This document shows, one piece after another, positions 17,397-35,847 of a DNA stretch of 35,847 nt. Source of the DNA: an archaeon (GTDB lineage: Archaea; Nanobdellota; Nanobdellia; SCGC-AAA011-G17; GW2011-AR17); contig JABHYY010000002.1 in the NCBI GenBank assembly GCA_018653605.1, positions 1 to 35,847 of the forward strand, in the 5' to 3' direction. The translations under genes were made by a program, and so were the position numbers. Every line of letters begins with the position of its first letter. Within the stretch, counting starts at the first letter, position 1. The notes below the pieces were generated by a model, which was given only the letters and a program-made list of their open reading frames with translations, was not told the origin of the DNA and ran no database searches.

Positions 17397-17437
17397 GGTT
17401 AATATTCTAATATAATTAATTGCAAGAGGTGAAAGGA

Positions 17438-19942
17438 TTGGTTGATCAAGCACTAAAAGATTTTATTAAACAGAGTTTAGCTAAAGGGATTTCTAAAGAA
17501 GATTTGAAAAAGGTGTTGATTAAGAAAGGTTGGGATGCAAAAGATGTTAATCTTGCAATGAATTCAAGTGTTCCTGTAACTACTGCTGGTGCTATGAAAA
17601 AACCTGAAACTGTTTCTACTAAAAAGCCTTTTAACAAAAAATGGTTGTTGATTGGTATTGGTGCTTTGGTTGTTTTGTTCTTGTTTGGAATTGTTGGGTT
17701 TTGGGTGAGTAGTATGCTTGGAAGTATTGATGGTATTGAGGGTGGTGAATCTGATTGTTACTCTGATGATGATTGTGGAAGTGATTATGAGTGTTCTAGG
17801 GGTGAGTGTGTGTATGTAGGGGATGATGATGTTGATGATGTTGATGAAGATGAGTGTAGTTTGGATTCTGATTGTTCTACAGGGTATGAATGTAGTTTTG
17901 GAACTTGTGTAGTGAGTTCTACTGATGATGGTGGAGATGATGATGTTGATGAAGAAGTGAATTGTACTGGGATTTGTAGAACTGGATGTCCTGAATATTG
18001 TGGTGGAACTGAAGTTCTTAGTGGTGTTACTGTTTATGCTGATATAGATCCAGATAATATCACTGAAGGTAGTTGTGGTGATTGGACTGAGTGTGAGTAT
18101 AATTTGCCGTTTTCAAATACTGGTAATGCTACATTTTCAAATGCTTGGAATATTAATTGTAGCTTGTATGCTGAGAATGGTTCATTAGTTGATTATGATA
18201 AGATTAGTGTTCATGATACTATGGAGGCTGGTGAAAGGTATTCTGTTACTGCTGAGTTTGATGTTGAAGAGTTTATGCCTAATGTTCTTTTAGAGAATGT
18301 TACTGTTATTTGTACTTTGGATATGTATAGCAATATTACTGAAAGTAATGAAGGTAATAATGTTCAAACAAATAGTTTTATTATTAATCGGACTGTGATT
18401 CCAACTTATGATTGTGATTATAGTTTTATTGAAGGTGCTAGTTTGACTTTTGATTCTGATACTTTGGTGATTGTGAACATTACTAGTACTGAGGTTAATG
18501 TTACTGTTGATGGTGTTGCTGGAAGTGTGTTTGCTAAAACTGAGGTTAGTGGGTTAAATGTTGCTGTGAGCGCTGTATTTGGTGATTATGTTAACATGAC
18601 TGTGTATAACCAAACTGTTTGTCCACATTATGAGTTAGCTTGTTTGAATGATAAGTTATGTGCTTGTGGTGAAATGTGTAGTCTTGGTGTTTGTGTTGCT
18701 GGTTCTGTTAAGCCTGAATGTAGTGACAATTGTGATAATGATGCTGATCTTTATACTGATTGGCCTGATGACCCTGAGTGTGCAAATTCTGCTGATCCTA
18801 CTGAGAATGTGGAGGAGACTAGGTGTAATGATGGTTTGGATAATGATTTTGATCTTTTGGAAGATTGGCCTGCTGATCCTGGTTGTTTAGGGCCTTGGGA
18901 TGATGATGAGAGGAATGCTTGTACTGATAGAGTTGATAATGATGGTGATGGGTTAGTTGATTATGCTGGTCTTAATCCTGATCCTGGTTGTGTTAGTGGT
19001 TCTGATGATGATGAGTGGAATGAATGTAATGGGGCTGATGATTGTGGCTTAGGTTGGGTTTGTGATGAAATGGTCTGTGTTCAAGGTGAGTGTAATGATG
19101 GTGTTGATAATGATGGTGATAATGAGGGTGCTAGAATTGATGTTAATGGTAAATTAATAGGGGATGGTGGTATTGATTATGCTGGTGCTTGTGAATTTGA
19201 GGGTTTGGGTTCAACCTTGCTTTATTCTTGTGAAGAGCTTGGTTTTGGAATTGCTGGATTTGTTAATGGGGATGGAAGTGTTGATATACTTAACTTAAGA
19301 AATGCTTGTGAAATTGGTTGTGTTGATCAAGGTGGTGAATATATTCTTGATGATGAAGATTGTGCTGGTTTTGATGATTGGGATGAAGATGCTTCTCTTA
19401 TTCATGCTGATGTTGGTAATGCAAAGGTTTCAAATCAGTTTGGTTCAGTTTTTTGCAATGTTGATAATGAATGTGACAAGGGTTGGGTTTGTAATGACCA
19501 TGTTTGTGAAAGACCTGAATGTAATGATGGCGAGGATAATAATGTTAATGATGTTAATTGGAATGATGATTATCTGATTGATTTTTATGGGGGTTGCTGG
19601 GTTTATGATAGTAATGCAAATAGAGAATCTTATGCTTGTGATGAGTTAGGTGTAGATTATGAAGATAAACAGATTAGTGAAATTAGGGATGAATGTAAAG
19701 AAGTTTGTATAAATTTAGAATATTATGAGTATAGTCCAATATACCGATCCTTTGATCCTGATTGTGAACAAGCAAGAGATGATAATGAAGGTGCTGATCC
19801 TATAGAAGTTGATTGGGGTAATGTGGAAGTTAAAACTCAACCAGGTTTAAGAAGTTCTGCAGAATATGAAGATTTAAATTGGTACCAAAAAGTGTGGAAT
19901 TGGCTGTTTGTTTCTGAATCTGTTGATGTTCTAAATTACTGA
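17438..19942 (+). CDS. Membrane-anchored, Cys-rich acidic surface protein
   Basis: An 834-residue protein. TTG at 17438 is chosen because GAGGTG lies six bases upstream; in-frame TTG 17420 and GTG 17429 lack this. A cytoplasmic helical domain (ISKEDLKKVLIKKGWDAKDV, residues about 18-37) precedes one membrane span (about 69-93). Outside come two Cys knots of the form DDDCGSDYECSRGECV and DSDCSTGYECSFGTCV, an acidic linker, a CARDB-like domain at about residues 195-310 (PFSNTGNATF, ITESNEGNN), then repeated CNDGxDNDxDxxxDWPxDPGC units likely to bind calcium, and sequons throughout. It is probably a glycosylated, calcium-stabilised surface or adhesion protein. It is followed within 110 bases by the giant protein gene in the same direction. 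Confidence 0.88.
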   Translation: MVDQALKDFIKQSLAKGISKEDLKKVLIKKGWDAKDVNLAMNSSVPVTTAGAMKKPETVSTKKPFNKKWLLIGIGALVVLFLFGIVGFWVSSMLGSIDGIEGGESDCYSDDDCGSDYECSRGECVYVGDDDVDDVDEDECSLDSDCSTGYECSFGTCVVSSTDDGGDDDVDEEVNCTGICRTGCPEYCGGTEVLSGVTVYADIDPDNITEGSCGDWTECEYNLPFSNTGNATFSNAWNINCSLYAENGSLVDYDKISVHDTMEAGERYSVTAEFDVEEFMPNVLLENVTVICTLDMYSNITESNEGNNVQTNSFIINRTVIPTYDCDYSFIEGASLTFDSDTLVIVNITSTEVNVTVDGVAGSVFAKTEVSGLNVAVSAVFGDYVNMTVYNQTVCPHYELACLNDKLCACGEMCSLGVCVAGSVKPECSDNCDNDADLYTDWPDDPECANSADPTENVEETRCNDGLDNDFDLLEDWPADPGCLGPWDDDERNACTDRVDNDGDGLVDYAGLNPDPGCVSGSDDDEWNECNGADDCGLGWVCDEMVCVQGECNDGVDNDGDNEGARIDVNGKLIGDGGIDYAGACEFEGLGSTLLYSCEELGFGIAGFVNGDGSVDILNLRNACEIGCVDQGGEYILDDEDCAGFDDWDEDASLIHADVGNAKVSNQFGSVFCNVDNECDKGWVCNDHVCERPECNDGEDNNVNDVNWNDDYLIDFYGGCWVYDSNANRESYACDELGVDYEDKQISEIRDECKEVCINLEYYEYSPIYRSFDPDCEQARDDNEGADPIEVDWGNVEVKTQPGLRSSAEYEDLNWYQKVWNWLFVSESVDVLNY

Positions 19943-19983
19943 GGGTGTAACAACCTGTAACCTACATTCTTTATTATATAATT

Positions 19984-20010: not shown

Positions 20011-20051
20011 AATTCCTTATTATTATTCTGTAGGTTACAATTAAAAAGGGG

Positions 20052-23000
20052 ATGGGTTTTGTGCACAAAAAGAGGATTCATAATAGAGATTATTATTACG
20101 CTTCATACAGGGGTGAAGATGGTAAAGTTTGTTCTAAATATTTAGGTAGTGATGAAAAGTTAGCTTTGAAAAAAGAGAAGGATATGGATGGTGGGAAGGC
20201 TGATCTTTATGTTTACAGTTTAATATTTTTGCTTTTAGGTTTGTGTTTTTTTGGTGGGATGTTTTCTTACACTGGCTTTGTAACCTACAATGGTGGTGTT
20301 GATTTATCTTGGAATGAAAGTTGGGATGTTGATTCAAGTTTTGTTCGTGTAAGTCTTGGTAGTGATGTTTATGATATTCCTGTTTCTGTTGTTGATGGTT
20401 CTGTTGTTGTTGATTTGTCTGTTTTTGATTTTAATTCTACTGGTGTTGGTTATGTTGATTTGATTGTAAATGAAAGTGTTGTTGATTCTGCTTCTTTTGA
20501 GATTGCAGAAGAATCCTATTTTAACGAATCCTTGAGTGCACAAAACCTAACCCTAAATGATACAGAGTTAAATAATTCTGTTGATGGGTTTAACTCAAGT
20601 TTGGATTTGAATGAATCTGTTTCTTTGAATGAGTCTTTGGATCTTAATGAAAGTGTTGAAGAGTCTTTGAATGTTTCTGTGGATGTACCTGTTGTTAATG
20701 AAACTGTTGAAGATGTTGATGAAAGTGTTGAATTGGTAAATGAGAGTGTTGAAGATGTTGATGAAACTGTTGAAGAAGTATTAAATGAAAGCTTAAATGT
20801 TTCTGTAGAGGTCCCGATTGTTAACCTGACTGCTAATGAAACTGTTATAATTCCTGTTAACATTACTAATCAAACTGTGAATTACACAATTGCTGGTGTA
20901 AATGTTTCTGAAGAGGTTGTACAGTATGGTGCTGTGATTGGTGAACCTGTTAAATGGAAGAAGAAGATTGTTTTATCTGAAAGCACTGCTAATTTGAGTG
21001 TTGACATTCCTGAAACTGCTGAAAATGTTACAGTTGTTGAAATTGTTGATGATGTTGAAACTGTTTTGGATAATGTTAAGGTGAATAATTCTGGTGTTAT
21101 TAGTGATTTGGATGGAAGTGATCTGGATAGTCCTACTGGGTTCTTTAATTTAATCTCTGGAATGTTTAGTGCTTCAATAACTGGTTTCTTTGTAGCTGGA
21201 GAACCTGTTGAAAATATTACTTTGATTATTGAAGAAGAGGTTGAAGAGGTTGAAGTTGAATATTATACTGAAGCTCCTGAAGCTAGTGAAGAAAACACTA
21301 GTTATGGTAAAAAAGTTGTTGTGAGTTCTGAAACTCACTATGAAAATATTTTAACCTACACTACAATTCCTGAAATTGCATTAGATGCAGTTAACTTGTA
21401 TTGGATTGTGAATGGTTCTAGGGTTGTACATTCCTTTGATGGTTATGATACAAATGCTGATGGTTTGGTTGATTATCTTGAATGGGTTACACCGCACACT
21501 TCTGAACAAGAATTTCAGATTGAGCTTACAATTTTGAATGTGCAATCATATCCTTTTGTTGGTGGTAGCTGGACTGTTATGTTTAATACAAGTGGTACTG
21601 CTGACTTAAGTGTCAATGCAATTAATACCACTTCCTTTGGAGTTGATTTACAATTTATAGAAATTAGGTGTGGTGAGGATGTTGTAAATAGTTCTTATAA
21701 TGGTTCTATTTTTGTTGCTGATTATTCTTGTAATCAAACTGGGTTTGAAGAGTCTAGAGTTTTGACTGCTGGTGTTCATGATTTAGAGTTTAGGTTTGGT
21801 GACTTGGTTGCTTATGCTCACAATGATGCGAGTTATCCCAATTGTACTGGTGCTACTTCAAATGGTATTTGGGTAATTAATGATTCTCAAACTGTGAATG
21901 ATACTGTAACTTGTAACACCATTACTATTCAGGATGGTGGAACTTTAGTTGTTGATACTACTGTTAATAATGTTTCAATTACAATTAATGCAACTAATAT
22001 TACTGTTGATGTTGGTGGTTCTATTAATGCAAATGAAAAAGGTTGGATGTTGTCTGAAGGTCCTGGTCAAGGTTCTACTGGTACTTATGATCAAGGTGGT
22101 GGTGGAGGTGGTTATGGTGGAAAAGGTGGTAATGGTGAATCTGGAGTTGCTGGTGGTAGTCATTTTGGTGATTCTTTGGTTCCTACTAGATTAGGTTCTG
22201 GTGGTGGTTATTGTAGTCAGGCTAGTTGTAATAGTGGTGGTTCTGGTGGTGGTGCAATTAAGTTAGATGTTATTGATACTTTTACTTTGAATGGTAGTGT
22301 TAGTGCTGATGGTGAATCTGGTACTACTTATCAAACTTTTTATGCTGGTGGTGGTGGTTCTGCTGGATCTATTTTTGTTAATACTAGTGTTCTTAGAGGG
22401 ATTGGTAATTTTAGTGCTGTTGGTGGTGATGGTGCTGATAATAGTGGTGGTGATGGTGGTGGTGGTTCTGGTGGTCGTGTTGCTGTTTATTATGATAGTG
22501 TTGAAGATGTTGATATAACTACTAGTACTGTTGCTGGTGGTACTGGACCTGGTAGTGCACAGGATGGTGATCCTGGAACTTTAGGTTTTATTGATCGTGA
22601 TGATAGGCATTTAACAATTTATTCTGGTTGGGAATTTTCTAGTAATATGAATTATACTAATGTTAGTGTTTACAGTTCCTTGACTAGGATGAATAAGTCT
22701 ATTAATATGAATGCAAGTAATTGGAATGCTTTTGGTGATTTTAACATGACTTGTTATGGAAATACTTATGACTTTACTTTAGATGTTGTTAATGATGTAA
22801 ACTTTTCTAGAAGTACTATAAAGAATTTAGGTAGAGCAAATTTAGATTGTGATAATGTTGATGTAAATGCTACTGAAAGTAGTGTTGTTTTCATGGAAGA
22901 CATTACTATTGAAGTTGGTGGTAATATTAGTTTAGATTTAGGCAATGATTTAGTTTTGAATGATTCTAGTTTGTCTTCCAATCGTGAGTTGCAATGGATG

Positions 23001-26000
23001 TTCTTTAGAAATATTTCAAACTTAAGTTTGCAAAATGTCAATATAAAGAGTAATTTGAATTGGAGTTTAATAAATTTGAGTGTTGATAGTTTATCTAAAT
23101 TAAATGCTACTACAAAGGGTTATAATATTACAACTGGTCCAGGTGAAGGTACTACTGGTACTTATAATGAAGGTGCTGGTGGTGGTGGATATGGTGGAAA
23201 AGCTGGTAATGGTGAAACTGGCAAATCTGGTGGAAGTCATTTTGGTGATGCTTTAGTTCCTGTGAGATTTGGTTCTGGTGGAGGTTATTGTAGTCAGCCT
23301 AGTTGTAGTACTGGTAGTTCTGCTGGTGGTGCAATTATTCTAAGAATTACTGATACCTTTACTCTAAATGGTAGTGTTAGTGCTGATGGTGAAGCTGGTA
23401 CTACTTTTCAAACTTTTTATGCTGGTGGTGGTGGTTCTGCTGGATCTATTTTTGTTAATACTAGTATTTTTAGGGGAACTGGTAGTTTTAGTGCAGTAGG
23501 TGGTACTGGTGGTGATAATAGTGGTGGTGATGGTGGTGGTGGTTCTGGTGGTCGTGTTGCTGTTTATTATGATAGTGTTGAAGATGTTGATATAACTACT
23601 AGTACTGTTGCTGGTGGTACTGGACCTGGTAGTGCTCAAGAAGGTGACCCAGGAACTTTAGGTTTTATTGATCGTGATGATAGGCACTTGACAATTTATT
23701 CTGGTTGGGAGTTTGCTAGTAATATGAATTATACTAATGTTAGTGTTTACAGTTCTTTGACTCGGATGAATAAGTCTATTAATATGAATGCTAGTAATTG
23801 GAATTCTTTGGGTGATTTTAACATGACTTGTTATGCTAACACTTATGATTTTACTCTAGATGTTGTAAATGATGCAAACTTTTCTCGTTCTGCAATTAAG
23901 AATTTGGGAAATGCTAACTTAGATTGTGATAATGTTTATGTTAATGCTACTGAAAGTGGTGTTGTTTTCATGGAAGATATTACAATTGAAGCTGGTGGTA
24001 ATGTTAGTTTAGACTTAGGTAATAATTTAGTATTGAATGATTCAAGTTTATTTTCTAATCGAGAGTTGCAATGGGTTTTCTTTAGAAACATTTCTAACTT
24101 AAGTTTACAAAATGTTCATATTAAAAGTAATATTAATCTAAGTTTGGTTAACTTTAGTGTTGATATTTTGTCTAAATTAAATTCTACTGGTAAAGGTTAT
24201 AATATGACTCTTGGTTCTGGTCAAGGTGGTGATGGTGGTTATAGGGATGGCGGTGGTGGTGCTGGTTATGGTGGGATTGGTGGTACAAGTTGGGGTGGAA
24301 GTGGTAATAGTCCTGGTGGTAGTCATTTTGGTGATGCTTTAGTTCCTGTTAGGTTTGGTTCTGGTGGTGGTTATTGTAGTCAAGGAGCTTGTAATAAAGG
24401 TAGTGCTGGTGGTGGTTCAATAATCCTGAGAGTTAGTGATACTTTTACTTTGAATGGTACTGTTGATTCTAATGGTGAAAAAGGTCATTTTACTGGGAGT
24501 GATTATACTGGTGGTGGTGGTTCTGGTGGTTCTATTTTTGTTAATGCTAGTGTTTTTAGAGGGATTGGAAACTTTAGTGCTGTTGGTGGTTCTGGTGCTG
24601 ATAATAGTAATTCTGATGGTGGTGGTGGTTCTGGTGGTCGTGTTGCTGTTTATTATGATAGTGTTGAAGATGTTGATATAACTGATAGTGTGGTAACTGG
24701 TGGTACTGGTCCTGGTAGTGCCCAGGATGGTGATCCAGGAACTTTAGGTTTTATTGATCGTGATGATAGGCACTTGACAATTTATGATGGTTGGGAGTTT
24801 TCAAGTAATATGAATTATACTAATGTTAGTGTTTACAGTTCTTTGACTCGGATGAATGCTTCTATTAATATGAATGCTAGTAATTGGAATTCTTTGGGTG
24901 ATTTTAACATGACTTGTTATGCTAACACTTATGATTTTACTCTAGATGTTGTAAATGATGCAAACTTTTCTCGTTCTGCAATTAAGAATTTTGGTTTAGC
25001 TAATTTAGATTGTGATAATGTTTATGTTAATGCTACTGAAAGTGGTGTTGTTTTCATGGAAGATATTACAATTGAAGCTGGTGGTAATGTTAGTTTAGAC
25101 TTAGGTAATGTTTTGACTTTAAACAATTCTGACTTGTCTCACAATAGAGAGTTACAATGGGTGTCTTTCCATAATGTTTCAAATCTTGTTTTCCAGGATG
25201 TTGATATTCTTGGAAATATTAATTGGAGTTTAGTTAATTTTAGTGTTGATAGTTTGTCTAGTTTGAATGCTACTGGTAAGGGTTATAATATGACAACTGG
25301 TCTTGGTCAAGGTGGTGATGGTGGTTATCGTTCTGGTGGTGGTGCCGGTGGTTATGGTGCTAAAGGTGGTAATGGGGAAGCTGGAGTTGCTGGTGGTGTT
25401 TCTTATGGTAGTTTTTTGATGCCTTCTGATTTTGGTTCTGGTGGTGGTTATTGTAGTCAAGGAGCTTGTAATAGAGGTAGTGCTGGTGGTGGGATTATTA
25501 TTTTTAATGTTAAGGATACTTTTGTTTTGAATACTACTGTTAGTGTTGATGGTGAAAAAGGTCATTCTACTGGGAGTGATTATGCTGGTGGTGGTGGTTC
25601 TGGTGGTTCTATTTATGTTAATACTAGTACTTTAAGTGGGGTGGGCGATTTTACTGCTTTAGGTGCTTCTGGTGGTGATACTACTTATGCTGATGGTGGT
25701 GGTGGTTCTGGTGGTCGTATTGCTGTTTATTATGAAACTTTAGAGTATATGAATATTACTGGAATTGGTTTAGCTAGTGGTAGTGGTCCTGGTGATGCTC
25801 AGGATGGTGGAGATGGGTCATTGTTTAAGTGTGATACTGTTCCTGGAGTTGGTTGTAATCCTTTATCTTCATCTGTGCTTTGGATTAGTTCTGTTAATGC
25901 TGATCAAAGAGTTGAGTATACAGTTAACCAAAGTATTGAAATTAATAAAACAATCACTACTTGGAATGCTACTGTTTTGCTTTGGAATGATAGTGCAAGT

Positions 26001-29000
26001 AATGTTACAACTTTAGCAATTTATAATACTTCAGGGTTAACTAGTTCTATCAATTATACTGTTGCTAACAATTCTATAGAATTTTCGGAGTCTCCAATGT
26101 TAACTTCTGCAGCTGGTAATATGGATTTATTTAATCTGAGTTTAGCTGCAGATCAGCAGGTACAAGTTCAAGAATTGGTTAGACCTGTTGTTAATTCAGT
26201 GAATACTTTCAATTCTTCAGGTGTTATGGTTAATGATGGTGTGTCTTTGAATTTTAATACTAATGTAACTTATAATCTATCTGTAACATCTGGTTCAAAT
26301 TCAATTTCTGCTGCATGGGTTGTTATTTGGAGTACTGTTGTTGATGGTGCTGAGTATGCAAATGAGTTGATGACTTTTGATGGAACAAATTATAGTGTTG
26401 ATATTTATATTAATAATTCACTTTATTCATTGGTTAATTATACTGTTTATTCTAATGATACTTTGAATTATATCTCTTCTCAGAATGGGAATTTTAGTTT
26501 GAGTCTTCCTCCTCGTTATGATGGGTCTACACTTTATGGTGCAAGCTTTATGGAAAATGTTACAATAAATTCTAATGTTACTGGAGTTGGTTTGGTTGGG
26601 GTTAATTTTACTATAACTAGGTATACTGATAATGTTAATATTTTGGATAATGTTGCTGCTGTTGTTAACTCTTCTATGTTGTGGAATTCTAGTTCTACTA
26701 ATTTAAGTCAATGTACTGAATATAATTATAGTGTTCTGGCTTGGAATAGTGGTGGTTTGACTTCAACTTCTTATGGTAATATAACTCTTGTTTGTGTTGA
26801 TGTTAATTTGAATTCTAGTTCAGTTAATGTAAATAGTAGTGTTGAAGTTACAGGTTCTTTTAATTTAACAAATGGTAGTGCTGTTTCTGCGAATGGTGTT
26901 GAAATATATTATAATGATGATTTGAAAAGTAATGCTGCTAATTGGTGGAATACTAGTTGGAAATATAGAACTAATGTTACTGTTAATACTGGTTATATGC
27001 CAAGAGGAAACAATACTTATGTTAAAAGAATTATTAATTTTAGTAGTTTAATGTCTGATGCTGGGATTAGTGGAACTTTAGATAATAAATCTATTAGGGT
27101 TGCTGATATGAATGGTAGAGAGATGGATTCTAATATCCTTAAGTGGATTGTTGTTAATGATACTGGTATGCTTCGTTGGAAGTTAACTACTAATGGTACA
27201 ATTAACAAAGGAGTAAATTATAGTTATTATATTTATTTTGATACTGTTCAGAATGGGTTGAAGGAATCTCCAACTTATAGTTTATCTAAAGAATTTTGGC
27301 TTTGTTCTGGTGCTGATTCTGGTAATGATCTTTACTATGCTTATTCAACTTATAATAGAACTTTGCCAAGTTCTTGGACTATATGGGATCCTCAATCAAG
27401 TAGTGAAAAAGATGAATCTACTATTGCTGACTTTGATAATGATGGTGATTATGATGTAATCTTTACTTCAGATGGTGCTAATTCTGCTTATGTTTATTCA
27501 AATGATGGTGATGCGAGTTGGAGCTTTACTTTGACTCAAACAATTACTAGTATTGATTATAATTGGAATGGTATTTGTGAGGGTGATTTTAATGAGGATG
27601 GTTGGTTGGATATTGTTATTAATGATGATAATTGTGTTATAAATTATTATCAAAATGATGGTGATGGAACCTTTACTTATAATTCAACAGCTGGAGATTG
27701 TGGTGGTGAGCCAAGGAAAATTGCTTGTGGTGATTTGAATGGTGATGATAATATTGATATTTTAGCTGGTGCTTATAGTAATGGTGGGTTGTACTGGATC
27801 CAAGGTGATGGTGATGGTACTTTTACTTCAATTGGTAATATTGCTGATTCTACTGCCCAAGGTGATGATTGGCATGGTGTGTGGTTGGTTGATTCTGATA
27901 ATGATGGTGATTTGGATGCCTATGGCCAGTCTAATAATGCTTATGCTGATTATTTTGCTAACAATGGAACTGGTGGTTATGCAAATGGTGTTGAGTTGAC
28001 TGATGGTGGATTGTTTGACTCAAGTCCATCTCAAAATGAGTGGGGTTCTGGTACTGTTGGTGATTATGATAACGATGGTGCAATGGATGTTACTGAGGGT
28101 AGTTGGACAAGTGGAACTTCTGATATGATAGTTTATTGGGGTAATAATAGTAAAAGTGATATTTTTAATAGCGGAAATCCTAGTGAAAAAAGTTCTTCAT
28201 CTGGAATGGCTGATTGGGAGATGTGGTGTGGTGGTAAGGATGCTATCCAAGGAATTAATATAAGTGTTGCTGCCGCTGTTGTGGATTCAAGTTATAAAAC
28301 AAATTCTTCTGCTGGGTTTAGTTATAATATTACTGTTGATACTGCAGGTGTTTTGCCTGTTAAAGTTAATACTACCTTTGCTGGAATTTATGGTTGGAGT
28401 TTTGCTAATATAGATGTTTATCAACAACCAGCTGTTAATACAGTTACATTTTTGGGAAGTAATAATTATGCAAACAATATTACTTTACAAGCAAATATTA
28501 GTGATGATAATTTAGTTGGAGTAAATTTTACAATTACAAGAAATGATGGTACAGTTGTTTTAAATAATCAGTTGGGTACAAATGGTACTGCAACTTCTTG
28601 GAATTCAACTTCTGTCAATCTTACTCAATGTGCTGAACATAATTATACTATTTATGCTTTGGATGCTCAGGGTTATAATGTAACTTCTTATGGAAACATT
28701 ACCCTGCTTTGTGTTGAATTGAATTTGAATGCTACTTCTGTTGCTTTGAATGGTAGTGTTTTGGTTTCAGGTATTATTAATTTAACAAATGGTACTGCTG
28801 TTGCTAATACTATTATTAACCTTTATTTGAATGAAAGTTTGCCAACTACAACTGTAGCTACTCATTCAGGTGGAACTATAACATCATATCTTGATGAGAA
28901 TAATACTAATTATAGTGTTCATACTTTTACATCAAGTGGATCATTTAATATTTCTGCCAATGTTACTGTTGAAGTTTTAGTTGTTGCTGCTGGTGGTGGT

Positions 29001-32000
29001 GGTGGTGGAACTATTGGTGGTGGTGGTGGTGCTGGTGGTTTAATTTATAATTCATCTTATCCTGTAACTGCTGAGACTAATTATGCTGTTACTATTGGTA
29101 GTGGGGGTAATGGTGGTGTTGGTTGGAATTATCAACCTAGTGCTGGAACAAATGGTGGAAATTCAGTTTTTAGTACATTAACTGCAGTTGGTGGTGGTGG
29201 TGGAGCAGGTCATACAACAGCACCTGTTATTGGTGGTTCTGGTGGTGGTGGTGCAAATAGTTATGGGACTGGTGCAGCTGGAACTGCTGGACAAGGAAAT
29301 TCTGGTGGGCTTGGTACTACAAATGATGGTGGTGGTGGTGGAGGTGCTGGTGCTAGTGGAACTAATTATGGAGCTGGAGGAGCAGGATTAAATTATTCAA
29401 TTAATGGTTCAAATGTTTATTATGCTGGTGGTGGTGGTGGTGGAGGTAGAGCTGGACCTGGTAGTGCTGATGCTGGTGGAATTGGTGGTGGAGGAGCTGG
29501 TTCATTAAATTCTGTATTAGCTACTGCTGGAACTCCAAATACAGGTGGTGGTGGTGGTGGTAGTGGTTATAATGGAGCTAGTTCATCAGTGCTTGGTGGT
29601 GGTGGTGGTTCAGGTATAGTTATAATTAAATACTTAACATCAGACTTGTCTACAGCAATTACAACAAATGCATCTGGTTGGTACACTTATAATTTAACTC
29701 TTAATACAACTGGTTTACAAACAATTAAAGTTAATACAACTTTTACTAGTTTGTATGGAGAAAGTTTTGCTAGTTTAGATGTTGTGCAAGCTCCTACTGT
29801 TACTTTAGGTAGTCCGGCTAATAATAATTTTTCAGTTGCATTGGAGTCAGTTTATTTTAACTGTTCTGTAATTGATGCTGATGGTGATTTAGCTAATGTT
29901 ACTCTTTATCATAATCTTGGTGGTACTTGGGGTTCAAATGGAACTCGAACTGTTTCTGGTAGTGCTAATGAAAGTATTTTTGTAGAGAATATTAAGAGTT
30001 TTACTTCAAGTAGTTTGAGAGATTCTAATTTTATTTGGAATTGTTATGCTCGGGATGGTACTAACCTTGTTGCTAGGGCGAGTAATGCTACTTTTGGTAG
30101 TTGGGATCTTGGTAATTATACTGATGATACTTTGTTAAATAGTAGTAGTTTGTTTTTAGGGTTAGATGATAATGATACTAAACAGGAAATTAGTTCTGAT
30201 TGGGTTAATACTACTGATTTAGTTTTATTGTATCATTTTAATAATGATAGTGGTTATAGTGAGAATGATCAGAAGAATGTTTCAAATTCTGTTTATGATT
30301 TTTCAGGTTTAGGTAATAATGGTAGTTTAGGTAATGTAACTAGTAGTACAAATCCTGTTTGGAATATTACTGGTAAATTGGGTGGTGGTTATAGTTTTGA
30401 TGGAAAGGATGATTATATTGATTTGGGATTAGATAATAGTTTAAAAGTTAGTTATGGTTATTCCATTTCAGCTTGGATTAATGCTCCTGCAATACCTAAT
30501 GATGCTTTGTGGGCTATTGTTAGTAGTCAAAAAGATTCTACAACTAATGGTGTATCTATTATTTTAGATGGTAGATCAAATCCTGATAGTCAAACTGCTC
30601 CTCGAAGACACATTCATTTTCAAACAGGAGATGGGACTTGGTATACTACAAATGTTAATGCAGTTGTGCCTACAAATGAATGGGTTCATATAGTAGCAAC
30701 AAGAGATGCAGGTGAAGATGGAAAAGTATATTATAATGGAATTTTGAAACCTTCTACTAGTGCGAATAGTTATTCTGGTGCAATAACTTTTACTAATAAT
30801 TGGCAGATTGGAAGACAAGCAGATAAGGCACGTCATTTTAATGGTTCTATAGATGAAGTTGGAATTTGGAATAGGACTTTATCTGCTGCTGAGATTTTAG
30901 AAATTTATGATAAGCAGAAAGGGATTTATCTTATTGATGGGAATTATACTTCTAGAGTTTTAGATGCTGGTAGGAATAGTACTTGGTTAAATGTAACTTG
31001 GGATGAAAATCTTCCTTATGGTGAAGAGTTGCCTTCTAATCAAGGTGTTGAAACAAGTTTGGGTGGGGTTAATATGACTGGTAATGTTTTACTTTATCAT
31101 TTTAATAATGATAGTAGTTTTAGTGAGAATGATCAGAGGAATGTTTCAAATTCTGTTTATGATTTTTCAGGTTTAGGTAATAATGGTAGTTTAGGTAATG
31201 CTAGTGCAAGTTCTAACCCTGTTTGGAATATTAGTGGTAAGTTGGGTGGAGCATATAGTTTTAATCGACATTTTATATATGCAAATACTGTCAGTCCTTA
31301 TCTTTCAGGGGATTTCACTTTATCTACATGGGTTCAATCTGAATCAAATACAGATGGACAATTTTTCGCTTCATTTAATACGCAGGCGGGTGGAAACACA
31401 CTTTTATTTGGAAGTTTAGGTGGGAAAAGTAATTTGTCTCTTTATGATACTGATGGTTGGGAACATACTAATAAGAGTTTTATTGATGGGAATTGGCATC
31501 ATGTAATGTTTATTCTTGATGCTGGTAATAGTGGAACTTTCTATCTTGATGGTGTCAATGTTTTTGATTATTCTACTTCTACTACTATTGGTTCTACAGA
31601 TTCTTTTTCCATAGGAATGGAATATGATTCTGCTAATCCAAGTAACTTTTGGAATGGTAGTATAGATGAGTTTGCAATTTGGAATAGAAGTTTAAGTAAT
31701 GCTGAGATTTTGAATGTGTATAAGAGAGGTGCTTTGAGATTGAATTTATCAGCTCGTTCTTGTGATGACTCCAGTTGTGTGGGAGAGTCTTGGACAGGTG
31801 TTGGTGGCAATGCAAGCTTTGAATCAATCAGTTTAGTGACAAATAGATACTTCCAGTATATGATGTCATATGAATCTGATGACACTTTGTATACTCCTGA
31901 GTTAAACTTGAGTAGTGTTGTTGTTGGTTATACTGTGTTGAATACTGCACCTCAAGTAACTAATGTTACTATGAATAGTACAAGTGGTTTTAATTACAGT

Positions 32001-35000
32001 AATTCTTCATTGCAAACTTATTGGAAGATTTGGGATGCTGATGGTGATTCTGAGAGTGCAAGTTGGACTTGGTGGTGGAAGGATGGTGTTAAGCAGAGTG
32101 CTTTAGAGAATGAGAGTTCTATTACTGCTAACAATTTGAGTAAGAATGAAAAATGGAATATGAGTGTAAGGTTGTATGATAGTTTAGATTGGAGTAACTG
32201 GAGTGGTAATGTTTCTGTTACTGTTGCAAACACCCCTCCTAATTATACTTTGTTAACTCCAACTGATGCTCAGTTGTTGCTTAGGAGTGTTTCTCCTTTA
32301 TTGAATGTAAGTTTTACTGACCCTGATTCAGATCCAATTAATGTAAGTTTCATTAATGATAGTGATGATGTAATTTTGTGTCAGGTTAACAATTCAAATA
32401 AAACTTCTGCTTGTGTTTGGAGTGACTTGAACCCTAACATGGTTTATTCTTGGTATGTAAACATTAGTGATGGTGATGAGGTTGTTCAAACTGACACTTT
32501 TAATTTTACACCAAACAATGAACCTGGTGTAAAAAATATGCGTTTGGAAATGGTAAATGCAAGTGCTATAAGGTTTGCTTGGGAAAATGAACCGGACATG
32601 TCTTGGGTTTCTTTGAGGATTGGTAGTGATATTTTGGAGTTGCGAAGTATTACTAGTAGTAATGATAACTGGACTGTTTACACTATTTACCCTGACCAGG
32701 AGTATGTCTTTGAATGGCAAACTGGTGATGATTTGTTGGCGCAAAGTGATTACCATAACTTTACATTTAAAACTTTTGGTTGGCATACAAACTTGACTAA
32801 CTTTACTTATAGAAGAGTTATGACTGTAAACCAAAGTAATATTACTACTGATGTTGAGAATTATGGTGTTAACATTACTTTGACTGAAGAAAATTTTGAA
32901 TATTCTGCTTCTGGTGTTTGGTACCCTAGTTTTAAAAGAATGAATTGGAGTAACAATCGTGACTTTAGGTTTGTTGATTACAAAGATAAAAATCTTTTGG
33001 CTTACAATGTTACTTATTGGAATGTTCCTGGTCGTGGTGGTGTTTCTGTTCAAACTTCTCCTAATGCAACTGCACAGGCTGGTGGTTGGGTTGACTTCAG
33101 TCAAGGGTCAGATGAAGATTGGGACACACAGATGACACCTAGTCCTTATGGTGAGTATTATTATAATTATACAATCCCTGTTGGTGCTAAGAATGGAAGT
33201 AAGTATAGAATTTATGATGGTGGTTGGGGTTGGGACTTGACTTTGCCTGTTGGTTGTTATGGTGGCACTGACTTACAGTTTAAGACTGCTTCAAATTATT
33301 CAAACACTGGTGTTAACACTTACTGTTGGAACAACACTGGTTCAGAGTGGGCTTTTGTTCGAAACAATGGTAATGTTTCTGCTTATGTTTATGAAGTGAT
33401 GATGACTTGGTTGTTTGATTGTGAAGTTCACATTACTGTTATGCCTCAACATTATAATGATACAAACCAAACTTATAATTCTGGTTTGGATACTGACTAT
33501 GATGTTAAGTTTTGGATGTACTATGGTAGTTTGAATGCTACTGATAATACTACAGTTTTAAGTCCGACTGGTATTTGGGGTAATGCAACTCACATTGCTG
33601 CTGAGACTGCAAGAGTTCTTGGTACACCTGCAATTTCTAATATTAATGATACTGTTGGTCGAACTTCAACTGGTACTAATATTAGTTGGGACACTGACCA
33701 GTCTTCTGACCATAGGGTTAGGTACTCTGACAACAAATGGTTCTTGAACTCTACCTGGCATTCAAGGAAAGTTAATAACAGTGAAACTTGTGAACATTTG
33801 TATGGTAATGATGAACAAACTGTGTTGATAAGTGCTTATGGTGATGATTATATCCAAACTTTGAATGTAAGTTGTGAGAATGCAAATTATAATTCTAATT
33901 ATACAATTAATGAAAGTGCAAATCCTGTGAGTATTGTATTTGCTGACTTGGATAATTCTACTTTCTTTAACTGGACTGTAAATTATACTTGGAACAGAAC
34001 ACAGTTAAGAGATAAGTTTAGTGCTGAGTATCAGTTGGAAAGTTTGCCTGGTAATGCAACTTATTATTATGAGATTAATGTTTATGGTCAGACTGCGAAC
34101 AACACTGATAATAGTACTTTCACTTTAGGTACTGCACCTTCAACTCCTGCCTTAACAATTTTGAATTACAGTGAAAATCGTTCTGGTAAACAAGCAACCA
34201 TTTGTGCAAACTTGACTAACTTGAATAGTGAGTCAGAAGTAAACTGTTCAATTCAGTATTGGAACCAAAGTTCTGTTGATTTTATGACAAGTAATATTAC
34301 AAATTTGAGTGCGATTGGTACTTACTGTTTTACTGTTGATGTTGAGTATGGTCAGAATTATACTTACAGAGCAAAAGGTCAAGCAAGTACAACTGGTTAC
34401 AGTTTAGAATATTTGAATGATTTCATGTTAATTCAAGAGTTCTTTGCTGGTAGTTATGTTGAAGATGATAATGATGATAGGAATAGACAATTTTGTCCTG
34501 ATGGTCCTGCTATTGAACCTTGTTATGAACAAACTGGTTATTTGGAAGGTAGTTTGCAGGAAGAGGATTGGATCTGGATTGAAACTAACCAGTCTAACAG
34601 AGGTAACTTGACTGTCAACTGGTGGAATGGTAGTGTTTGGACACCTTACAATATGACAAATGATGGTGACTCTGACATGCAATACTTGAAGTTAGAAGAC
34701 TTAGGTCCAAAGTTCCAAACTTTTTACATAACTAATGATAGTGATGACTTAGTTTTCAATTGGACAAAGCCAAGTCCAATTCACAGTCCTAAGCTTAACA
34801 GAACTGATGAGTCTAAGTATGTTTCTTTCAATGGAACCCCTGCTCCTGTTAATTATACTTTGTTATATTTCGATGCTAAGTATTACAATAGCAGTGCTTA
34901 CCAATGGTGTATGGCTGCACCTGGTGGAAACTTGTATGATTGTATGAGTATCCAATACTTTGGTGGTGGTCTTGAGGGTGGTTGGGGTCCTGAGTATTCT

Positions 35001-35847
35001 GGTACTGCGTATGATAGGGGACGAATGTTTAGAGGTGGTATTGCTAATGGTGAGTTGAATGATACTGGTGTTTTGAATTTAGAAAGAAGAACTAACTTTA
35101 CTGATGCTTATGATTATAGATATTGTTTTGCTTTTACTGTTTTCTGGTGGAACGAATCTGTTGTACCAAACAACAATGTTACTAATTATTACTATCATTA
35201 CTGGACACAAAATGATTGGTGGTCTGATTACTTTGGTGCAACTCAAAGTCGAAGATTCGATTTTGTTAGTTTGTTCACTTGGGAGTATGACTTGTTGAGT
35301 CAGACTAGGGATTGGAATTCAATTGATAATACTACAATGTTAACTGAAAGAATGGTATTGAACACTTCAAACTCAACTTTTAATACACCTTACAATCAAA
35401 GTTTGGTCATTGGTCACCAAACTGGTTTTGCATATGATGTTAGGGATGATCAGATTTATGACTTTGGTTTTTACACTGATGGTAGATGGACTAACCAACA
35501 GTTTGGTCAGTACCAACAAGGTTTTGTGGTTTTCAATTTACCACCAAATGCAACATTGCAAGCTATGGACACTGATAATGATTCAATAAGTGACTTTGAT
35601 GAATTGTTTGTTTATTATACAAATCCAAAACATAATGATACTGACGAGGATGGAAGGATTGACTCTGATGAACTTAATTTGAGTTATGATCCAAACTTGT
35701 TTACTCAATATGGTACTGCACCAACTGTTGAGGTTCCAGTTTTAGATAGAGATTCACATGTTGCAAACACAAGTTACGTTGCAAATGCAACTTACAGTGA
35801 CTTTGATTCAGATAATGCAACTGTTTATATTGTTTGGTACAAAAATG
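20052..35847 (+). CDS. Giant mosaic, sequon-rich surface protein, 3' end outside window
   Basis: A single frame from ATG 20052 stays open to the last base: 5,265 codons and no stop. Residues 1-53 are cytoplasmic, starting with a MGFVHKKR...YYY...KYLG module; residues about 54-77 are one membrane span. Outside follow an Asn/Ser/Glu stalk dense in sequons (about 157-283); DTNADGLVDYLEW near 466; three and a half 359-362-residue glycine-rich repeats (663 to about 1930); a DUF2341-like segment (about 2297-2400); DxDxDG VCBS/FG-GAP repeats (about 2453-2700); a glycine-rich domain (about 2955-3195); two LamG-like domains (about 3387-3630, 3677-3897); Ig/FN3-like regions; and a calcium-type segment (about 5173-5217). 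It is probably a cell-surface adhesin or envelope fibre and a major AglB substrate. The start is supported by similarity of MGFV to the Fic start MVFV. Confidence 0.93.
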   Translation, partial: MGFVHKKRIHNRDYYYASYRGEDGKVCSKYLGSDEKLALKKEKDMDGGKADLYVYSLIFLLLGLCFFGGMFSYTGFVTYNGGVDLSWNESWDVDSSFVRVSLGSDVYDIPVSVVDGSVVVDLSVFDFNSTGVGYVDLIVNESVVDSASFEIAEESYFNESLSAQNLTLNDTELNNSVDGFNSSLDLNESVSLNESLDLNESVEESLNVSVDVPVVNETVEDVDESVELVNESVEDVDETVEEVLNESLNVSVEVPIVNLTANETVIIPVNITNQTVNYTIAGVNVSEEVVQYGAVIGEPVKWKKKIVLSESTANLSVDIPETAENVTVVEIVDDVETVLDNVKVNNSGVISDLDGSDLDSPTGFFNLISGMFSASITGFFVAGEPVENITLIIEEEVEEVEVEYYTEAPEASEENTSYGKKVVVSSETHYENILTYTTIPEIALDAVNLYWIVNGSRVVHSFDGYDTNADGLVDYLEWVTPHTSEQEFQIELTILNVQSYPFVGGSWTVMFNTSGTADLSVNAINTTSFGVDLQFIEIRCGEDVVNSSYNGSIFVADYSCNQTGFEESRVLTAGVHDLEFRFGDLVAYAHNDASYPNCTGATSNGIWVINDSQTVNDTVTCNTITIQDGGTLVVDTTVNNVSITINATNITVDVGGSINANEKGWMLSEGPGQGSTGTYDQGGGGGGYGGKGGNGESGVAGGSHFGDSLVPTRLGSGGGYCSQASCNSGGSGGGAIKLDVIDTFTLNGSVSADGESGTTYQTFYAGGGGSAGSIFVNTSVLRGIGNFSAVGGDGADNSGGDGGGGSGGRVAVYYDSVEDVDITTSTVAGGTGPGSAQDGDPGTLGFIDRDDRHLTIYSGWEFSSNMNYTNVSVYSSLTRMNKSINMNASNWNAFGDFNMTCYGNTYDFTLDVVNDVNFSRSTIKNLGRANLDCDNVDVNATESSVVFMEDITIEVGGNISLDLGNDLVLNDSSLSSNRELQWMFFRNISNLSLQNVNIKSNLNWSLINLSVDSLSKLNATTKGYNITTGPGEGTTGTYNEGAGGGGYGGKAGNGETGKSGGSHFGDALVPVRFGSGGGYCSQPSCSTGSSAGGAIILRITDTFTLNGSVSADGEAGTTFQTFYAGGGGSAGSIFVNTSIFRGTGSFSAVGGTGGDNSGGDGGGGSGGRVAVYYDSVEDVDITTSTVAGGTGPGSAQEGDPGTLGFIDRDDRHLTIYSGWEFASNMNYTNVSVYSSLTRMNKSINMNASNWNSLGDFNMTCYANTYDFTLDVVNDANFSRSAIKNLGNANLDCDNVYVNATESGVVFMEDITIEAGGNVSLDLGNNLVLNDSSLFSNRELQWVFFRNISNLSLQNVHIKSNINLSLVNFSVDILSKLNSTGKGYNMTLGSGQGGDGGYRDGGGGAGYGGIGGTSWGGSGNSPGGSHFGDALVPVRFGSGGGYCSQGACNKGSAGGGSIILRVSDTFTLNGTVDSNGEKGHFTGSDYTGGGGSGGSIFVNASVFRGIGNFSAVGGSGADNSNSDGGGGSGGRVAVYYDSVEDVDITDSVVTGGTGPGSAQDGDPGTLGFIDRDDRHLTIYDGWEFSSNMNYTNVSVYSSLTRMNASINMNASNWNSLGDFNMTCYANTYDFTLDVVNDANFSRSAIKNFGLANLDCDNVYVNATESGVVFMEDITIEAGGNVSLDLGNVLTLNNSDLSHNRELQWVSFHNVSNLVFQDVDILGNINWSLVNFSVDSLSSLNATGKGYNMTTGLGQGGDGGYRSGGGAGGYGAKGGNGEAGVAGGVSYGSFLMPSDFGSGGGYCSQGACNRGSAGGGIIIFNVKDTFVLNTTVSVDGEKGHSTGSDYAGGGGSGGSIYVNTSTLSGVGDFTALGASGGDTTYADGGGGSGGRIAVYYETLEYMNITGIGLASGSGPGDAQDGGDGSLFKCDTVPGVGCNPLSSSVLWISSVNADQRVEYTVNQSIEINKTITTWNATVLLWNDSASNVTTLAIYNTSGLTSSINYTVANNSIEFSESPMLTSAAGNMDLFNLSLAADQQVQVQELVRPVVNSVNTFNSSGVMVNDGVSLNFNTNVTYNLSVTSGSNSISAAWVVIWSTVVDGAEYANELMTFDGTNYSVDIYINNSLYSLVNYTVYSNDTLNYISSQNGNFSLSLPPRYDGSTLYGASFMENVTINSNVTGVGLVGVNFTITRYTDNVNILDNVAAVVNSSMLWNSSSTNLSQCTEYNYSVLAWNSGGLTSTSYGNITLVCVDVNLNSSSVNVNSSVEVTGSFNLTNGSAVSANGVEIYYNDDLKSNAANWWNTSWKYRTNVTVNTGYMPRGNNTYVKRIINFSSLMSDAGISGTLDNKSIRVADMNGREMDSNILKWIVVNDTGMLRWKLTTNGTINKGVNYSYYIYFDTVQNGLKESPTYSLSKEFWLCSGADSGNDLYYAYSTYNRTLPSSWTIWDPQSSSEKDESTIADFDNDGDYDVIFTSDGANSAYVYSNDGDASWSFTLTQTITSIDYNWNGICEGDFNEDGWLDIVINDDNCVINYYQNDGDGTFTYNSTAGDCGGEPRKIACGDLNGDDNIDILAGAYSNGGLYWIQGDGDGTFTSIGNIADSTAQGDDWHGVWLVDSDNDGDLDAYGQSNNAYADYFANNGTGGYANGVELTDGGLFDSSPSQNEWGSGTVGDYDNDGAMDVTEGSWTSGTSDMIVYWGNNSKSDIFNSGNPSEKSSSSGMADWEMWCGGKDAIQGINISVAAAVVDSSYKTNSSAGFSYNITVDTAGVLPVKVNTTFAGIYGWSFANIDVYQQPAVNTVTFLGSNNYANNITLQANISDDNLVGVNFTITRNDGTVVLNNQLGTNGTATSWNSTSVNLTQCAEHNYTIYALDAQGYNVTSYGNITLLCVELNLNATSVALNGSVLVSGIINLTNGTAVANTIINLYLNESLPTTTVATHSGGTITSYLDENNTNYSVHTFTSSGSFNISANVTVEVLVVAAGGGGGGTIGGGGGAGGLIYNSSYPVTAETNYAVTIGSGGNGGVGWNYQPSAGTNGGNSVFSTLTAVGGGGGAGHTTAPVIGGSGGGGANSYGTGAAGTAGQGNSGGLGTTNDGGGGGGAGASGTNYGAGGAGLNYSINGSNVYYAGGGGGGGRAGPGSADAGGIGGGGAGSLNSVLATAGTPNTGGGGGGSGYNGASSSVLGGGGGSGIVIIKYLTSDLSTAITTNASGWYTYNLTLNTTGLQTIKVNTTFTSLYGESFASLDVVQAPTVTLGSPANNNFSVALESVYFNCSVIDADGDLANVTLYHNLGGTWGSNGTRTVSGSANESIFVENIKSFTSSSLRDSNFIWNCYARDGTNLVARASNATFGSWDLGNYTDDTLLNSSSLFLGLDDNDTKQEISSDWVNTTDLVLLYHFNNDSGYSENDQKNVSNSVYDFSGLGNNGSLGNVTSSTNPVWNITGKLGGGYSFDGKDDYIDLGLDNSLKVSYGYSISAWINAPAIPNDALWAIVSSQKDSTTNGVSIILDGRSNPDSQTAPRRHIHFQTGDGTWYTTNVNAVVPTNEWVHIVATRDAGEDGKVYYNGILKPSTSANSYSGAITFTNNWQIGRQADKARHFNGSIDEVGIWNRTLSAAEILEIYDKQKGIYLIDGNYTSRVLDAGRNSTWLNVTWDENLPYGEELPSNQGVETSLGGVNMTGNVLLYHFNNDSSFSENDQRNVSNSVYDFSGLGNNGSLGNASASSNPVWNISGKLGGAYSFNRHFIYANTVSPYLSGDFTLSTWVQSESNTDGQFFASFNTQAGGNTLLFGSLGGKSNLSLYDTDGWEHTNKSFIDGNWHHVMFILDAGNSGTFYLDGVNVFDYSTSTTIGSTDSFSIGMEYDSANPSNFWNGSIDEFAIWNRSLSNAEILNVYKRGALRLNLSARSCDDSSCVGESWTGVGGNASFESISLVTNRYFQYMMSYESDDTLYTPELNLSSVVVGYTVLNTAPQVTNVTMNSTSGFNYSNSSLQTYWKIWDADGDSESASWTWWWKDGVKQSALENESSITANNLSKNEKWNMSVRLYDSLDWSNWSGNVSVTVANTPPNYTLLTPTDAQLLLRSVSPLLNVSFTDPDSDPINVSFINDSDDVILCQVNNSNKTSACVWSDLNPNMVYSWYVNISDGDEVVQTDTFNFTPNNEPGVKNMRLEMVNASAIRFAWENEPDMSWVSLRIGSDILELRSITSSNDNWTVYTIYPDQEYVFEWQTGDDLLAQSDYHNFTFKTFGWHTNLTNFTYRRVMTVNQSNITTDVENYGVNITLTEENFEYSASGVWYPSFKRMNWSNNRDFRFVDYKDKNLLAYNVTYWNVPGRGGVSVQTSPNATAQAGGWVDFSQGSDEDWDTQMTPSPYGEYYYNYTIPVGAKNGSKYRIYDGGWGWDLTLPVGCYGGTDLQFKTASNYSNTGVNTYCWNNTGSEWAFVRNNGNVSAYVYEVMMTWLFDCEVHITVMPQHYNDTNQTYNSGLDTDYDVKFWMYYGSLNATDNTTVLSPTGIWGNATHIAAETARVLGTPAISNINDTVGRTSTGTNISWDTDQSSDHRVRYSDNKWFLNSTWHSRKVNNSETCEHLYGNDEQTVLISAYGDDYIQTLNVSCENANYNSNYTINESANPVSIVFADLDNSTFFNWTVNYTWNRTQLRDKFSAEYQLESLPGNATYYYEINVYGQTANNTDNSTFTLGTAPSTPALTILNYSENRSGKQATICANLTNLNSESEVNCSIQYWNQSSVDFMTSNITNLSAIGTYCFTVDVEYGQNYTYRAKGQASTTGYSLEYLNDFMLIQEFFAGSYVEDDNDDRNRQFCPDGPAIEPCYEQTGYLEGSLQEEDWIWIETNQSNRGNLTVNWWNGSVWTPYNMTNDGDSDMQYLKLEDLGPKFQTFYITNDSDDLVFNWTKPSPIHSPKLNRTDESKYVSFNGTPAPVNYTLLYFDAKYYNSSAYQWCMAAPGGNLYDCMSIQYFGGGLEGGWGPEYSGTAYDRGRMFRGGIANGELNDTGVLNLERRTNFTDAYDYRYCFAFTVFWWNESVVPNNNVTNYYYHYWTQNDWWSDYFGATQSRRFDFVSLFTWEYDLLSQTRDWNSIDNTTMLTERMVLNTSNSTFNTPYNQSLVIGHQTGFAYDVRDDQIYDFGFYTDGRWTNQQFGQYQQGFVVFNLPPNATLQAMDTDNDSISDFDELFVYYTNPKHNDTDEDGRIDSDELNLSYDPNLFTQYGTAPTVEVPVLDRDSHVANTSYVANATYSDFDSDNATVYIVWYKN
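22038..23114 (+). repeat. Giant-protein repeat unit 1 (359 codons)
   Basis: Begins KGWM. The first half is glycine-rich (GGGGGGYGGKGG, then GSGGGYCSQ..C, and GGGGSGGRVAVYY). The second half has DRDDRHLTIYSGWEF and NMTCYGNTYDFTLDV...LDCDN. Each unit carries two Cys pairs and many sequons. Confidence 0.9.
23115..24191 (+). repeat. Giant-protein repeat unit 2 (359 codons)
   Basis: Begins KGYNITTG. Shares about 100 identical bases with unit 1 around GGRVAVYYDSVEDVDI, and long identical stretches with unit 3 in its second half (about 130 bases around 23775-23905), showing recent copying. Confidence 0.9.
24192..25277 (+). repeat. Giant-protein repeat unit 3 (362 codons)
   Basis: Begins KGYNMTLG. 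Three codons longer than its neighbours because of an insertion in the first glycine-rich loop. The second half is almost identical in DNA to unit 2. Confidence 0.9.
25278..25840 (+). repeat. Giant-protein repeat unit 4, first half only
   Basis: Begins KGYNMTTG and keeps the glycine-rich half through GGRIAVYYE and GPGDAQDGGDG, then changes into unrelated Ig-like sequence. The half-unit end suggests that the glycine-rich half is a stand-alone domain. Confidence 0.85.
27410..28130 (+). other. VCBS/FG-GAP-like calcium repeats in the giant protein
   Basis: Five acidic blocks at regular intervals: IADFDNDGDYDVIF, EGDFNEDGWLDIVI, CGDLNGDDNIDILAG, LVDSDNDGDLDAYG and VGDYDNDGAMDVTEG. This is the signature of VCBS/FG-GAP beta-propeller repeats that bind calcium; five visible blades could be part of a seven-bladed propeller. 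Confidence 0.8.
28915..29635 (+). other. Glycine-rich beta domain in the giant protein
   Basis: Starts VHTFTSSGSFNIS...VEVLVVAAGGGGGG and ends GGGGGSGIVIIKYL, the pattern of the glycine-rich domain common in phage tail and bacterial surface proteins. It is inserted between Ig-like strands of the giant protein and differs from the four tandem glycine-rich units upstream. Confidence 0.72.
30211..30940 (+). other. LamG-like jellyroll domain 1 in the giant protein
   Basis: LLYHFNNDS, then KLGGGYSFDGKDDYIDLG, ISAWINAP, WVHIVATRDAGEDGKVYYNG and the closing IDEVGIWNRTLSAAEI are the standard strands of a concanavalin/LamG-like fold, often carbohydrate-binding. Confidence 0.88.
31080..31740 (+). other. 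LamG-like jellyroll domain 2 in the giant protein
   Basis: A second copy: LLYHFNNDSSFSENDQRN, KLGGAYSF, WHHVMFILDAGNSGTFYLDG and IDEFAIWNRSLSNAEIL. The N-terminal lead-in is nearly identical to that of domain 1, the core much less so, so the lead-in has been copied or conserved more strongly. Confidence 0.88.
35568..35700 (+). other. Calcium-binding, thrombospondin type 3-like segment
   Basis: DTDNDSISDFDELFVYYTNP followed by DTDEDGRIDSDELN: paired DxDxDxxxD loops with the TNP spacing typical of thrombospondin type 3-like calcium repeats. The protein continues into Ig-like sequence past the window edge. Confidence 0.75.

Follow-up and report, generated by a model that had tools for sequence, protein, structure and literature searches.

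The window (the whole stretch of DNA analysed, 35,847 nucleotides) encodes at least 5,265 residues of a giant modular protein, which is predicted to be anchored in the membrane, to carry many N-linked glycans and to serve in attachment at the cell surface; we assign this reading a probability of about 0.62. The open reading frame begins with an ATG at 20052 and contains 5,265 codons without a stop (20052-35846, + strand). It is open at the 3' end because contig C27, of which the window is the whole, stops there. The frame is as long as the original prediction had stated and qualifies as a giant protein gene (more than 5,000 codons in a single frame). Its codon-position composition is coding-like throughout (GC3 of 0.09-0.28 versus 0.31-0.55 for GC1 and GC2). 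The assembly has 960,978 bases in 42 contigs and is 93% complete; genomes of this order range in size from 0.5 to 1.8 Mb, which suggests that the archaeon is from a DPANN lineage. The proposal that this is a giant, mosaic surface protein with a membrane anchor is supported by the domain map, the membrane spans and a homologue in genome G006, a relative of the same family but a different genus. This homologue is encoded by a 6,154-aa frame on contig C4 (L035 / P0002) and its alignment is collinear with window residues ~2130-5265. Identity is 61% both at residues 2129-2700 and over the last 1,036 residues; for the whole stretch from residue ~3205 onwards it is 52-54%.

All features of the giant described below are on the + strand. 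The protein starts with a basic segment that is presumed to be cytoplasmic (residues 1-48, 20052-20195; defined from sequence). This segment belongs to no Pfam family, and similar segments are found in a paralogue encoded on contig C36 of the same genome and in genome G001. The single membrane span that had been claimed is recovered by hydropathy at residues 49-77 (20196-20282). It is followed by a conserved N-terminal module, predicted to be extracellular (residues ~82-598, 20295-21845; supported by genome matches, AlphaFold2 and Foldseek). Of 103 genomes of the order, 51 have a match to residues 1-620 (30 of the 47 of high quality), in frames that vary greatly in length. AlphaFold2 predicts that residues ~82-598 form Ig-like sandwiches joined by disordered, sequon-rich linkers (pLDDT 68). 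In a Foldseek comparison with the PDB, tandem proteins of the Ig type account for many of the best matches, at low TM-scores, and S-layer SbsC domains are among the weaker matches. At the opposite end of the protein, the G006 homologue has a C-terminal membrane span and basic tail, and the C36 paralogue has a C-terminal span and tail. As judged by hydropathy only, the N-terminal span and the C-terminal span of the homologue and paralogue point to membrane anchoring. Uncleaved double anchoring is not certain, because the N-terminus of some relatives is plain signal-peptide-like or lipobox-like.

Several neighbouring or related genes were also noted. A Fic/DOC protein is encoded at 13164-14060, and its N-terminus (KTKDYYVLTHSIR...KYLG) resembles the N-terminal segment of the giant by eye. 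Kinship of this 48-aa segment with the Fic gene was rejected, as BLASTP returned no alignment and there was no Pfam family. Upstream of the giant, an 840-aa protein (17420-19942) has one membrane span by eye, Cys-rich and Asp-rich segments and a weak CARDB match that is below the cut-off; it starts with a helical motif that resembles the tail at the C-terminus of the C36 paralogue. The latter (L037, 2174-7201) is a complete protein of 1,675 aa with three LamG domains, a giant-like N-terminal segment and a C-terminal span followed by the helical tail. Comparable complete proteins are found in G001 and G006. The paralogue gene adjoins a class I-type lysyl-tRNA synthetase (best solved match 1irx), which we take to be the archaeal type. 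Between the 840-aa protein and the giant, two copies of the 11-mer TGTAACCTACA (19956-19966 and 20029-20039) make up a perfect inverted repeat that flanks a TATA-like stretch, and a third exact copy is located just within the giant gene (20279-20289). The paired arrangement has no second occurrence in the genome. These repeats may serve as a site for a regulator or as an invertible promoter, or be a product of chance.

The tandem glycine-rich repeats that had been read from the sequence are present as four copies with a motif-based period of ~360 aa. Units 1 to 3 (21885-22961, 22962-24047 and 24048-25124) were delimited by motif period, unit 1 also by profile similarity, and are 74-80% identical to each other at the protein level. 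Unit 4 (25125-25766) is divergent (43-51% identity), and the motifs of units 1-3 are not recognisable in its second half. In a sample of 279 genomes from the phylum, 17 have large frames that encode similar units, mostly in tandem. Two such frames from other families of the class (G175:C5 and G132:C12; 2,908 and 3,756 aa) have 4-7 tandem units. A sequence search of solved structures with the repeats gave no match. A two-unit model is all-beta with moderate confidence (pLDDT 72), and its top Foldseek matches in the PDB are mostly parallel beta-helix adhesins, although at a non-significant E-value (0.02). The repeats are probably beta-solenoid-like, judging from this model. One viral match was also recovered with the model, at an E-value of 6e-4. 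Four stretches of the array match the NCBIfam model AgmC_N (NF047640; E-value: 1.3e-23), but the score of 83.7 bits is far below the cut-off of 275 and an AgmC identity was rejected. The similarity to the AgmC N-terminal domain is local only, and none of the 103 genomes has a match to NF047640 above the cut-off.

The modules downstream of the array are those that were expected from the original prediction, and most have matches in Pfam. The VCBS-like blades correspond to FG-GAP_3 (27414-28151; E-value: 8.5e-20), a domain of the same kind, and carry DxDxDG calcium-type motifs. They are located between two copies of a linker (26487-26930 and 28404-28847; 43% identity) for which an Ig-like-type fold is assumed. 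The glycine-rich domain is Gly_rich_2 (28932-29633; E-value: 9.2e-24). The two LamG-like domains are both Laminin_G_3 (30399-30896 and 31296-31709; E-value: 3.3e-44), with 99.2 and 82.9 bits, respectively, against a curated cut-off of 27.6. Six LamG domains are encoded by the genome in three frames. The calcium segments had also been predicted; D-x-D-x-D sequences are indeed found at residues 5173 and 5196 and stand as motifs, but they have no Pfam match. They are part of a DxDxD/thrombospondin-3-like calcium-type segment (residues ~5173-5210, 35568-35681) that has short matches in other genomes. The Pfam domains of the giant are typical of adhesins, and other authors have proposed that the LamG proteins of DPANN archaea, and their giant surface proteins, help the cells to attach or to interact with a host (PMC10266531, PMC5498576, PMC7414124).

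The giant is rich in N-glycosylation sequons. It has 282 N-x-S/T sites, compared to 102 +/- 8.6 expected (500 shuffles, maximum 125), and 113 occurrences of the reversed motif. The density of 5.36 sequons per 100 aa compares to 0-1.6 in the other window proteins tested and to about 4-7 in related large surface proteins. In the well-aligned region, 79 of 122 sequons are common to the window and G006 proteins, and asparagines are retained more often in sequons (68%) than elsewhere (51%; Fisher p 0.012). Contig C27 also encodes an STT3/AglB oligosaccharyltransferase (1774-4398, +; WWDYG motif at residue 588), a PMT_2-type glycosyltransferase (4388-5854, +), two family 2 glycosyltransferases (15692-17325, -; 15692-16603 and 16588-17325) and an NAD-dependent sugar epimerase/dehydratase (9011-9985, -). 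The genome thus combines a sequon excess with STT3/AglB, as is expected for an N-glycoprotein. Because of the sequon excess, the sequon conservation and the presence of STT3 and glycosyltransferases on the same contig, N-glycosylation of the giant is a well-supported prediction from sequence. The proximity of the genes suggests that these particular enzymes may act on the giant, with AglB as its likely glycosylation partner.

The very high sequon density and the Gly/Asn/Ser/Thr-rich composition would also suit a structural coat, either S-layer-like or a protective glycocalyx, in which the glycans and the length of the protein serve to shield the cell and not to attach it. The N-terminal module fits with this main rival explanation in that it is predicted to be Ig-like, has SbsC among its weaker matches and is found throughout half of the order, in proteins whose lengths differ greatly. 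However, LamG and FG-GAP are usual binding modules, and a highly variable domain composition with a C-terminal region in two genera only is unlike a conserved lattice protein. We therefore consider a coat function to be unlikely.

The C-terminal region (32739-35846; 1,036 residues, 61% identical in G006) has a strong match in G006 alone when 103 genomes of the order and 371 of the phylum are compared. Other matches are short and mostly fall at the calcium-type segment. Comparison by sequence with solved structures gave nothing convincing, and a comparison with viral contigs gave no match. This region might conceal a catalytic domain, and LamG_3 belongs to the concanavalin-like lectin/glucanase superfamily. 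The protein could be predatory or degradative, a function proposed for the giants of some host-dependent bacteria, with an enzyme that is assisted by the LamG or propeller parts. As a catalytic domain was absent both in Pfam and NCBIfam scans and in the G006 homologue, this function is improbable.

The G006 frame continues past the point corresponding to the end of the window and reaches a true stop codon by way of a membrane span and basic tail. This complete C-terminus is informative with respect to SPEARE, the nanohaloarchaeal giant (SVXNc_0300, 9,409 aa; PMC10266531) in which a membrane span and then a VirB4/TraG-like ATPase follow the tandem Ig-like domains. Both proteins are giant, membrane-anchored and extracellular, come from archaea with tiny genomes and have host contact as a proposed role, and their size class is similar (8,880-9,409 aa in PMC10266531). 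The window protein could accordingly be pictured as a SPEARE-like giant, with an adhesive ectodomain and with a secretion ATPase that acts on the host. However, the G006 homologue ends soon after its C-terminal span, and Pfam detects no ATPase in this homologue, including its full C-terminus, or in the window. In place of the ~75 Ig-like domains of SPEARE, the giant has Gly-rich, FG-GAP and LamG cassettes; some Ig-like parts are predicted, but not dozens of such domains in tandem. Because no ATPase follows the span in the homologue, a secretion role is disfavoured, and we regard a SPEARE-like function as very improbable.

The missing 3' end of the giant gene is probably located on contig C28 of the same genome. 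In a homology search, the C-terminal part of the G006 protein matches the extreme end of this contig, from its terminal base. Placed on the G006 protein, the end of the window falls at 5493 and the start of C28 at 5625, with a gap of ~131 residues between them, and the C28 frame was followed over 519 residues to a hydrophobic span. If C28 does carry the 3' end, the full length of the giant would be ~5.9 kaa. Identity to G006 is only 33% for the C28 end (compared to ~61% for the adjacent window end), and GC3 is 0.15 versus 0.26 in the comparison of the C28 end with the window end. Because of the 33% identity, and because no overlap was found between contigs C27 and C28, the C28 end could instead be the tail of a paralogue. 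Contig C28 also encodes frames of 1,451 and 379 aa (L048, 515-6093) whose domains are related to those in the C-terminal part of the giant; 12.3 kb separate these from the presumed 3' end.

Misassembly, including the collapse of repeats or the joining of separate genes, would undermine the single frame. Exact repeats of 123 bp (units 1-2) and 131 bp (units 2-3) are found in the Gly-rich array and, because of these, a short-read assembly may have the copy number wrong, which makes this number the least certain detail of the gene. Fusion of separate genes into the giant frame by an assembly artefact is hardly credible: although exact repeats of up to 131 bp lie in the array and the join near residues ~2040-2130 is the only junction known from the C27 assembly alone, residues ~2130-5265 (the C-terminal 60%) are unbroken in the independent assembly of G006, and other genomes (for example G004 and G009) also have the N-terminal module joined to Gly-rich repeats. 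From this contiguity and this recurring junction, misassembly is largely excluded and the frame appears to be a real single gene.

Comparison of the giant with its G006 homologue reveals a swapping of repeat cassettes. The framework from FG-GAP to the C-terminus is shared, with 52-61% identity over most of its length, and the homologue continues to a C-terminal membrane span, but two cassettes differ. Where the window protein has Gly-rich repeats, the N-terminal half of the homologue has a NosD-like parallel beta-helix, and Gly_rich_2 is replaced by an AgmC_N-like Gly-rich domain (E-value: 1.5e-46). The framework between and after these cassettes is kept in both proteins. The aligned sequences thus provide direct evidence for exchange of modules between homologues while the framework stays in place. 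The G006 gene itself also seems to be divided in its assembly: a 528-aa frame at the end of contig C16 (L050) carries the N-terminal module and NosD-like repeats near-identical to the start of C4. The G006 giant appears to be split over C16 and C4 inside these near-identical repeats, which would put its full length near 6.7 kaa. Its N-terminus has a lipobox-like sequence, LLGC.

The proposed model for the giant as an attachment protein is as follows. The N-terminal and C-terminal spans would hold the protein in the membrane, a topology that is predicted, with an ectodomain of ~5.8 kaa projecting as a fibre or loop. The length would be supplied by the Gly-rich repeats (probably a beta-solenoid) and the Ig-like linkers, and the FG-GAP and LamG domains, with the calcium-type segments, would provide the binding faces. 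AglB from the same contig would decorate the sequons. The likely job of such a protein is to attach the cell to surfaces or to other cells, be it a host or a partner, and relatives would exchange repeat cassettes while keeping the framework constant. More tentatively, the giant may belong to an order-wide cassette system, in which a conserved N-terminal anchor and Ig-like framework carry interchangeable beta-solenoid and lectin cassettes, the whole forms a double-anchored loop of ~5.9 kaa with its glycosylation enzymes encoded beside it, and swapping of cassettes alters what the cell binds.

Giant surface proteins occupy a considerable part of very small genomes, and this gene alone makes up ~1.8% of the genome analysed here. 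The giant and its G006 homologue allow framework to be separated from cassettes, the N-terminal module is a defined query for other genomes, and the sequon loading is linked in a testable manner to an oligosaccharyltransferase encoded on the same contig. Archaeal proteins of more than 5,000 aa are rare yet known (PMC11573180), and nanohaloarchaeal giants reach 9,409 aa (PMC10266531). The papers searched contain no description of the domain order or cassette exchange seen here; what is novel is the architecture, as the class of giant archaeal surface protein is already known. The DPANN LamG surface proteins (PMC5498576, PMC7414124) are similar to the giant in their LamG domains, presumed surface location and occurrence as several per genome, but differ from it in size and with respect to the Gly-rich array, FG-GAP blades and lineage-restricted C-terminal region. 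Very long, modular and often extracellular proteins are also known from other small-genome or host-associated microbes, including Omnitrophota (PMC10066038), Apilactobacillus (Giant1-5; PMC12863079) and archaea (over 5,000 aa; PMC11573180); no shared domain order is claimed for any of these. Together with the differences from SPEARE described above, the giant suggests that such archaea can build giant proteins in other ways than with the SPEARE architecture.
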